64,000 nt of DNA from Thermodesulfobacteriota bacterium (GTDB lineage: Bacteria; Desulfobacterota; UBA8473), in assembly GCA_040757775.1 (NCBI GenBank), contig JBFLWQ010000004.1, positions 2,270-66,269 of the forward strand, read 5' to 3'. A program made the translations under genes and the position numbers. The stretch's first letter is position 1; every line of letters begins with the position of its first letter. The notes below the pieces were generated by a model that had not been told where the DNA came from, made no database searches, and saw only the letters and a program-made list of their open reading frames with translations. This document shows, in pieces, positions 559 to 3,064 of the stretch.

Positions 559-1179
559 TCATTCCTTTTTTTTAACCCCATGAGCTTTCATAAGTCTTTC
601 CAGCATCTCGTAGGGCTGCGCACCAACCAACTTATCATGATTCATCACAAATGTTGGAACGGCTGTAATCGCTTTCTCTTGTGAAAGTGACCAATCCGCA
701 TCCACCGCCGTCTTAAATGCCCTTGTTGTAAGTATAGACTCTGCTTCTTTGCGAGAGAGCCCAATGGATGCAGCTAAATCTACAAGCACTGGAATTTTTG
801 CGATGTTTTTTCCGTCTACAAAGTAGGCCTTGAAGACCGCTATGTGGAACTCATCCCCTTTATTTTTTGATTCACACCAGAGACCCAATTCCTGAGATAG
901 ACGACTATTGTAAGTTTTTTCCTGCTCTCCGAAAGGCAATCCCAGAGTAGTTGCGGTTTGTCTAAAATTTCGCATCATTGCTTTTACATCTATACGGTAG
1001 TTGGCAAAAAGCTGTTCAATCAAAACCCCCCCCTCCGGTATTTCCGGATGAAGCGGAAAAGCCCGCCATTTAGTGGCGATTTCATATTCTCTTTTAAGCT
1101 GTTCAACACGCCCGGTGATGAAGTAGCACCAAGGTCAAATGTAATCGGAGAATATTTCAAGTGTTAAAGGTGTGGGCAT
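559..1179 (-). CDS. FrnE/DsbA-family thiol oxidoreductase, probable selenoprotein
   Basis: This is a DsbA-like thioredoxin-fold protein of the FrnE (2-hydroxychromene-2-carboxylate isomerase-like) family, about 206 aa, normal for the family. The ATG at 1179 has AGGA five bases upstream and opens with MPTPLTLEIFSDYI, the usual first strand. Codon 15 (1137-1135) is TGA where the first Cys of the CPWC motif is expected: it reads DYI-TGA-PWCYF. The frame then stays open to the stop at 559. Further family features are a cis-Pro loop (AVPTF, near residue 175) and the helical insert. Stopping at TGA would leave a 14-residue peptide, and no good start lies between TGA and a TTG at 1023, which would miss the active site. 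Selenocysteine insertion giving UPWC is the best reading. A nonsense mutation or sequencing error is the alternative. The role would be periplasmic or cytosolic dithiol-disulfide exchange; no signal peptide is visible. Confidence 0.75.
1135..1137 (-). other. In-frame TGA at active-site Cys (candidate Sec codon)
   Basis: The TGA replaces the first Cys of C-P-W-C. Two hairpins follow it by eye: CTTGGTG with CACCGGG (7 bp including G-U pairs, close to the TGA), and a short GTGT/ACA(G)C stem with loop TGA about 30 nt downstream. The second has the spacing expected of bacterial SECIS elements, but its stem is weak. Confidence 0.6.
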
Positions 1180-1242
1180 CTATATCCTGTTTATTGAGAA
1201 GGTTATCTTATTGTAAATCGAAACAAAGAGGCAGGTTTTTTG

Positions 1243-1293: not shown

Positions 1294-1367
1294 TGGGAGA
1301 TCGTCCAGCGGCAGGACTACGGACTCTGACTCCGTCAACCCAGGTTCGAATCCTGGTCTCCCAGCCA
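1294..1367 (+). tRNA. tRNA-Gln (CTG anticodon)
   Basis: The acceptor stem TGGGAGA/TCTCCCA pairs fully, the discriminator is G and CCA is encoded. The anticodon stem ACGGA/TCCGT encloses the loop CTCTGAC with anticodon CTG at 1326-1328, and the T arm contains GGTTCGAATCC. It lies tail-to-tail with glnS, which encodes the synthetase expected to charge it. Confidence 0.96.
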
Positions 1368-1387: not shown

Positions 1388-3064
1388 CTAACTATTCTCC
1401 TTTTGAGTAATCTTGGCCCACGAATCACGCAACGTTACAGTGCGGTTAAACACCATTACTCCATCGGAGGAATCAACCAAATCAACACAGAAATAGCCAA
1501 GCCTTTCGAACTGGTACTGGCTCCCCGGTTCAGCCTTTGCCAGAGACGGCTCAACCCGGCATAAGGTCAAAACCTCAAGCGAGTTAGGGTTTAAATAAGC
1601 CCTGAAGTTAATGTTATCCTTTATTCTGTCGGGGTTTTCTTCGGTAAGCAGGTTATCGTAGAGACGTACCTCAGCCGGTATAGAGTGGCTTTCAGAAACC
1701 CAGTGCAGCGTTGCTTTAACCTTGCGTCCATCCTGTGACCAGCCACCCCGTGTCTCAGGGTCATAAGTACAGTGAAGCTCAACCGGTTCCCCGGTTTTTT
1801 CATCCTTCACCACACTTATACATTTAATGTAATAGCCGTATCTCAGACGCACCTCACGACCAGGGGCTAACCGGAAGAATTTTTTTGGCGGGTCTTCAAG
1901 AAAATCATCTTGTTCTATATACAAAACGCGAGAGAAGGGTAGCTTACGCGATCCCATGCCTGGGTCTTCCGGATGATAAGGTGAATCCAGTTCCTCTGTT
2001 TTGTCTTCAGGATAGTTATCAATGATTACCCGAAGTGGACGCAACACTCCCATAACCCGTGGAGCCCTTTGATTCAGATCTTCACGGATGCAGTGCTCGA
2101 GCAGTGCCATGTCAACCATGCTTTCTTTTTTAGCGACTCCGATACGTTCACAGAAGTTTCGGATTGACTCTGGTGTATAGCCGCGTCTGCGCAGGCCTGA
2201 TATTGTAGGCATCCGTGGATCGTCCCACCCGCTGACGACTCCGCTTTCCACCAGTTCCAGAAGCTTACGTTTACTCATCAAAGCATAGCTCAGATTGAGA
2301 CGGGCAAACTCAATTTGCTTCGGATGGCAATCGACCTCCAGTTGGTCAAGCACCCAGTCGTATAATGGACGATGATCCTCGAATTCCAGCGTACAAATAG
2401 AGTGCGTAATCCCTTCAATAGAGTCAGAAATACAATGGGCATAGTCATACATCGGATAGATGCACCACTTGTTACCTGTTCGATGATGCTCTGTTCGAAG
2501 GATACGGTAAAGAACCGGGTCCCGCATATTTAAATTTGGAGATGACATATCGATTTTTGCCCGAAGTACACGAGAGCCCTCCTCAAATTCCCCTGCCCGC
2601 ATGCGTTCAAACAGGTCAAGGTTTTCCTCTATGGACCGTGTGCGGTAGGGGCTGTCTTTGCCAGGCTCAGTCAATGTACCACGATAATCTCTAATCTCCT
2701 CTGGGCCTAAATCACAAACGTATGCCCTGTCCTTTTTAATTAACTGAACAGCATATTGGTACAGCCTGTCAAAGTAGTCAGATGCGTAAAAGAGTCTATC
2801 CCCCCAATCGAAACCAAGCCATTTGATGTCCGATTTGATTGATTTAATGTATTCAGCACTTTCTTTGTTGGGGTTGGTGTCATCGAATCGTAAATTGCAA
2901 AGGCCGTGGTTTTCAGCGGCAAGACTAAAATTAAGCCAGATAGACTTGGCATGCCCGATATGCAGGTAGCCGTTTGGTTCAGGTGGAAACCGGGTATGGA
3001 CCCGGCTGCTGTTCTTGTTTGCCTTCAAGTCCTCTGCAATGATATTGCTAATGAAGTTGATCAT
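1388..3064 (-). CDS. glnS: Glutaminyl-tRNA synthetase
   Basis: This class I aminoacyl-tRNA synthetase attaches glutamine to tRNA-Gln in the cytoplasm. It is 558 aa, like characterised GlnRS. The HIGH motif is in [15 protein letters not shown] near residue 28-42, and the KMSKS loop appears as ALMSKRKL. The C-terminal beta-barrel anticodon-binding domains follow ([20 protein letters not shown]). It starts two bases after the stop of the upstream acyl-CoA dehydrogenase, so it is probably the last gene of a three-gene operon. The neighbouring tRNA-Gln gene is convergent. A dedicated GlnRS implies direct charging of tRNA-Gln, although an amidotransferase route elsewhere cannot be excluded. Confidence 0.97.

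Follow-up and report, generated by a model that had tools for sequence, protein, structure and literature searches.

Organisation of the locus and the encoded protein

The window, meaning the whole 64,000-nt stretch of DNA that was analysed, carries near its start a minus-strand gene for a FrnE/DsbA-like protein with a TGA at its active site. Translation from the ATG at 1179 gives MPTPLTLEIFSDYI-TGA-PWCYF...AITAVPTF...KKKE, in which the region before the TGA ends in LEIFSDYI. Besides the TGA at codon 15 (1137-1135), the frame from 1179 to 559 contains no internal stop. The features of the gene are listed below.

559..1179, minus strand: gene of the predicted FrnE/DsbA-like selenoprotein, 206 aa, with Sec as residue 15 and the final stop at 561-559
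1185..1188, minus strand: AGGA, a candidate ribosome-binding site, read from the sequence and plausible
1135..1137, minus strand: codon 15, the UGA predicted to encode Sec, with which the U-P-W-C redox motif opens
1126..1128, minus strand: TGC codon of the resolving Cys18 of U-x-x-C; Cys18 is invariant in an alignment of 38 proteins
655..657, minus strand: Pro175 of AVPTF, at the cis-Pro position of the thioredoxin fold; invariant in alignments

The mechanical ORF caller sets the gene start at 1023, downstream of the active site. Since this start lies past the TGA, the active site is lost in the standard annotation. The gene comes after an ORF on the same strand (1388-3064) that, from its translation, we take to be glnS (glutaminyl-tRNA-synthetase-like). 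A tRNA-Gln lies between the two on the opposite strand (window 1294-1367), and a downstream ORF (71-418, 115 aa) has no Pfam match. Among 90 homologous loci, with flanks of mostly 1.5-3 kb, no general conserved neighbour or operon partner was found. The large neighbour clusters in this comparison reflect the selenoprotein gene itself, read antisense or out of frame, and were set aside.

When the frame is read through the TGA, residues 6-197 match PF01323 (DSBA) with E=1.4e-29, and the AlphaFold model has a pLDDT of 97.4. The best PDB matches found by Foldseek, with which phmmer agrees, are Deinococcus radiodurans FrnE (5co3; E=1.3e-14, TM 0.89, 26% identity) and Streptomyces coelicolor SCO1869. 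The family match, the predicted model, and the likeness to 5co3 all point to a DsbA-like thioredoxin fold with a helical insert. Residues 15, 16, 18, and Pro175 are invariant in 38 proteins, the cis geometry of Pro175 being that expected for the family. Cys102 of the window protein corresponds to Ala in nearly all the other Sec proteins and, for that reason, probably has no part in the mechanism. No signal sequence is apparent by inspection, so the protein is probably cytoplasmic. The original prediction described the frame from 1179 to 559 as a complete FrnE-type protein except for the TGA at codon 15, placed that TGA where the redox motif has its first Cys, and regarded the resolving Cys, the cis-Pro of AVPTF, and the helical insert as intact. 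This description is confirmed by the translation, with its (TGA)-P-W-C, and by the PF01323 match, and the recurrence of the TGA at one codon in all 65 distinct Sec-form loci goes beyond chance.

The TGA codon, its exchange with Cys codons, and the Sec machinery

Of 395 genomes from the phylum, 78 have the gene (E<=1e-20), and most of these copies contain a single TGA. In the alignment, 65 distinct homologous loci share the TGA at one and the same codon, where the surrounding motif reads D[YF]x-U-P[WFY]C[YF]. At this position, only the Cys codons TGC and TGT occur in the CxxC homologs. Random stops elsewhere in the orthologues, which the original prediction named as evidence against itself, are essentially absent: further in-frame stops within the aligned frames occur only near the C-terminal end of two loci (L120 and L124). 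On the best tree of 92 proteins (64 Sec and 28 Cys), the Sec/Cys label switches 10 times, and at least seven of the switches between TGA and a Cys codon at position 15 are forced by well-supported branches. This pattern across the aligned genes shows that the UGA at codon 15 is evidently translated, as an amino acid that can be exchanged for Cys.

The source assembly is fragmented (3.1 Mb in 50 contigs) and contains all four of selA, selB, selC, and selD. A lack of selB or selC, which the original prediction had named as counting against itself, is thus not observed. The tRNA-Sec, the product of selC, scores 77 bits (cut-off 47) and has the anticodon UCA, while SelB scores 357 bits (cut-off 242), SelA 641 bits, and SelD 393 bits. 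The SelD gene has an in-frame TGA of its own (L096), so that SelD, like that of many bacteria, is probably a selenoprotein too. Co-occurrence of the gene with SelB across the phylum was discarded as evidence because SelB is present in 353 of the 395 genomes anyway, which makes the co-occurrence uninformative.

Two other genomes deserve mention. Genome G199, rated 100% complete, has a Sec-form gene with the conserved SECIS (L106, on G199:C37), and no SelB, SelA, or tRNA-Sec was found in it at the thresholds used. Either the contig was misbinned, or other contigs are missing, or the selenoprotein gene is stranded. Genome G232 has two Sec-form copies (L070 and L136), the second of which is cut by a contig end.

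Within the genus of the source organism, the gene is broken in two genomes. In G001 (L133, 3001-3557), the TGA and the SECIS are kept and a net 56-nt deletion breaks the frame, which is either real decay or an assembly fault. In G004 (L134, 1984-2955 and 3008-3151), the last quarter of the gene is all that is left, and it adjoins, at the syntenic position, a gene for an IS200-like (Y1) transposase. These broken copies in two close relatives suggest that the gene is dispensable in the genus. SelA is kept in both genomes and tRNA-Sec in G004, so the loss of Sec decoding does not explain the loss of the gene. SelB was not found in G002, G003, G004, and G006, in which the selenoprotein gene is absent or a remnant. 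Decay of the gene where the Sec machinery had been lost was considered and rejected, as G003, G004, and G006 have selA and tRNA-Sec; the missing SelB in the four genomes may be an assembly gap.

A conserved hairpin downstream of the UGA

The alignment of the 65 Sec loci is gap-free downstream of the UGA, and alignment columns are numbered here with the U of UGA as 1. The hairpin mapped from it has the following features in the window.

1102..1122, minus strand: SECIS upper stem-loop, from covariation, controls, and fold
1122-1115, minus strand: 5' arm of the upper stem, UUCAUCAC
1114-1110, minus strand: apical loop CGGGC, 5 nt, its second base a G
1109-1102, minus strand: 3' arm of the upper stem, GUGUUGAA
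1118/1106, minus strand: single U-U mismatch in the upper stem
1098..1127, minus strand: SECIS including the lower stem (1127-1125 with 1100-1098), from the 60-nt minimum-energy fold of one sequence only

Of all the 7-bp hairpins scanned, the helix formed by columns 17-23 with 29-35 is the best, with a paired fraction of 0.930 in the Sec genes against 0.575 in 40 Cys genes. In the Sec loci, 92.9% of the cells of this helix are paired, and two-sided changes are seen at 6 of the 7 pairs; for example, U-A has become C-G in 23 sequences, and A-U has become G-C in 22 and U-A in 5. The covariation of the helix is 0.482, compared with 0.192 after shuffling (with 0 of 500 shuffles reaching the observed value) and no more than 0.184 in slid controls. 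RNAalifold, given no prior hint, selects the same helix. Because the hairpin lies inside coding sequence, two synonymous-codon null models were applied. Free synonymous codon choice gives 0.627 +/- 0.015 paired, and permutation of synonymous codons within columns gives 0.870 +/- 0.006, against the 0.930 observed. As judged from the aligned genes, selection keeps a stem-loop just downstream of the UGA in the Sec genes; the Cys genes do not maintain it.

A second candidate, which overlaps this helix and lies closer to the UGA, has GGUG/CACC arms (columns 7-13/19-25). It is 90% paired and has two-sided changes at only 2 pairs; its good pairing follows from the conservation of PWCY, and the candidate was rejected.

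The helix encloses a 5-nt loop that begins 21 nt after the UGA (a spacing of 20 nt), nearer than the apical loop about 30 nt away that the original prediction had described. The published model of the bacterial SECIS has an apical loop of 3-9 nt, a stem of 4-16 bp, a G in the first two loop positions, a distance of 16-37 nt from the UGA, and a minimum free energy (MFE) of -7.5 kcal/mol or lower (PMC13188914). The mapped hairpin agrees with this geometry in its 5-nt loop, its stem of 7-8 positions, its G at position 2, and its 20 nt spacing. When the 60 nt starting at the UGA are folded, the hairpin is part of the minimum-energy structure, which has an MFE of -8.8 kcal/mol. The value depends on the length folded, being -7.3 kcal/mol for 36-40 nt and -4.5 kcal/mol for the upper stem-loop alone, against the published limit of -7.5. 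Folded alone over 71 nt, the window sequence gives z=0.18 and prefers the competing hairpin of columns 7-13/19-25, and an Rfam search of the window returned no SECIS match. With the window's own sequence, the hairpin has only moderate stability, and the SECIS is visible through comparison, not from folding that sequence by itself.

Interpretation and comparison with known systems

The TGA is one base away from both TGC and TGT, and the gene could be a pseudogene in which a recent nonsense mutation struck the first active-site Cys of an ordinary FrnE gene, an account that the broken copies in the close relatives G001 and G004 would suit. Yet the TGA is kept in 64 other distinct loci with the remaining frame open, the RNA structure downstream of it is under selection, and the Sec machinery is present in the genome. 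A TGA shared at one codon by 65 loci rules out both a private nonsense mutation and a sequencing error as its explanation, and on these alignments the pseudogene appears already refuted as a general account; for the window gene, it is very unlikely. A sequencing or assembly error hiding a true TGC or TGT, for which the fragmented 50-contig assembly could be blamed and which the original prediction had allowed for, has a negligible probability. Independent genomes and assemblies, among them a separately deposited MAG (L038), have the TGA at this codon too, and therefore the TGA does not stem from a sequencing error in this window.

Reading of the TGA as Trp or Cys, through a variant code or near-cognate readthrough and without selenium, would also leave the frame open past the TGA, whichever residue were inserted. 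However, the gene's own terminator is a TGA (561-559), Cys codons are the only others at position 15 in the CxxC homologs, a tRNA-Sec with the anticodon UCA and SelB are present, and the TGA genes retain a SECIS-type hairpin that is not maintained in the Cys genes; such a reading is extremely improbable. With the Sec machinery, the TGA at 65 loci, the exchange with Cys, and the covariation of the SECIS, the original prediction of a likely selenoprotein is upheld, and the gene almost certainly encodes a FrnE-type selenoprotein with Sec at its active site.

In bacteria in general, SelB with Sec-tRNA-Sec binds the apical loop of the SECIS and delivers Sec at the UGA. By analogy, SelB loaded with Sec-tRNA-Sec would bind the apical loop of the mapped hairpin and bring Sec to codon 15. 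As proposed from FrnE, the selenolate of Sec15 would be the nucleophile that attacks substrate disulfides, and Cys18 would resolve the resulting selenenylsulfide. The U-x-x-C motif may make the oxidoreductase much more reactive, as the original prediction supposed. A C-terminal CX4C is absent in 64 of the 64 Sec proteins examined, which makes direct recycling by a thioredoxin-type or small-thiol reductant probable. A role as a cytosolic disulfide reductase or isomerase is likely, judging by the 26%-identical FrnE.

On a broader view, the chances seem about even that FrnE-type selenoproteins form a large, long-established clade in this phylum, with Sec as the commoner form, repeatedly swapped with Cys, a SECIS at a fixed place whose sequence turns over, and recycling without a C-terminal CX4C. 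The same view holds that no NCBIfam model recognises these proteins, so that most of the genes have probably been annotated in truncated form. The 64 Sec and 28 Cys proteins, together with the covariation of a SECIS within coding sequence, offer a clean profile for recognising the family. They are also a good natural series for Sec/Cys exchange and for the benefit of Sec to a cytosolic disulfide reductase. The general picture of selenium biology is unchanged.

The fold superfamily is shared with 2-hydroxychromene-2-carboxylate isomerase and GST kappa, both of which depend on glutathione and carry a Ser in place of Sec15, whereas the window gene has UxxC. Two homologs (L030 and L032) serve as comparison cases for Ser at this position. 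The Rcas_1661 family of thioredoxin-like (seleno)lipoproteins (NF041057; DsbG-like selenoprotein) shares the thioredoxin fold with UxxC. Membership in it was rejected, as the match reaches 44 bits against a cut-off of 190 and covers residues 130-198 only; the NF041057 proteins are lipoproteins, while inspection of the window protein reveals no signal sequence.

Deinococcus radiodurans FrnE (DR_0659; PDB 5co3, 5cnw, 5cp1), the best PDB match, shares the DsbA fold, the CP(W/F)C-type motif, and the cytoplasmic location predicted here. It differs in having Cys where the window protein would have Sec and in possessing a C-terminal CX4C. This CX4C has been proposed to regenerate the active site in Deinococcus FrnE, the FrnE proteins of D. 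maricopensis and S. roseofulvus are without it, and disulfide reductase/isomerase activity has been shown only for D. radiodurans FrnE (PMC8945050). As many FrnE proteins have it and others are without it, the CX4C does not decide FrnE membership. Matches in plasmid records numbered 822, all below 60% identity.

The closest likeness is to the DsbA-like selenoproteins of COG2761, which we take to be the FrnE group. Such proteins with UxxC were described in 2005 from the Sargasso Sea (PMC1088965), appeared again in a 2006 survey (PMC1794560), and are listed by a 2026 review (PMC13188914) as "DsbA-like protein form 1" (PF01323). Among open-licence papers, the 2005 paper is the only one found to join COG2761 with selenoproteins, and none relevant by title or abstract links FrnE with selenocysteine or a selenoprotein. 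What is added here is the mapped SECIS with its covariation, the large proportion of Sec forms in the phylum, and the missing CX4C, details not spelled out as far as the open-licence papers searched show. The window gene shares with the COG2761/PF01323 proteins the family, UxxC with Sec first, a downstream bacterial SECIS, and widespread Cys homologs, and nothing excludes its membership, the comparison being with a family-level description that omits the name FrnE. Since UxxC selenoproteins of COG2761 have been known from 2005, this is no new kind of selenoprotein; the gene is a well-supported further example of a DsbA-like family already known in selenium versions.
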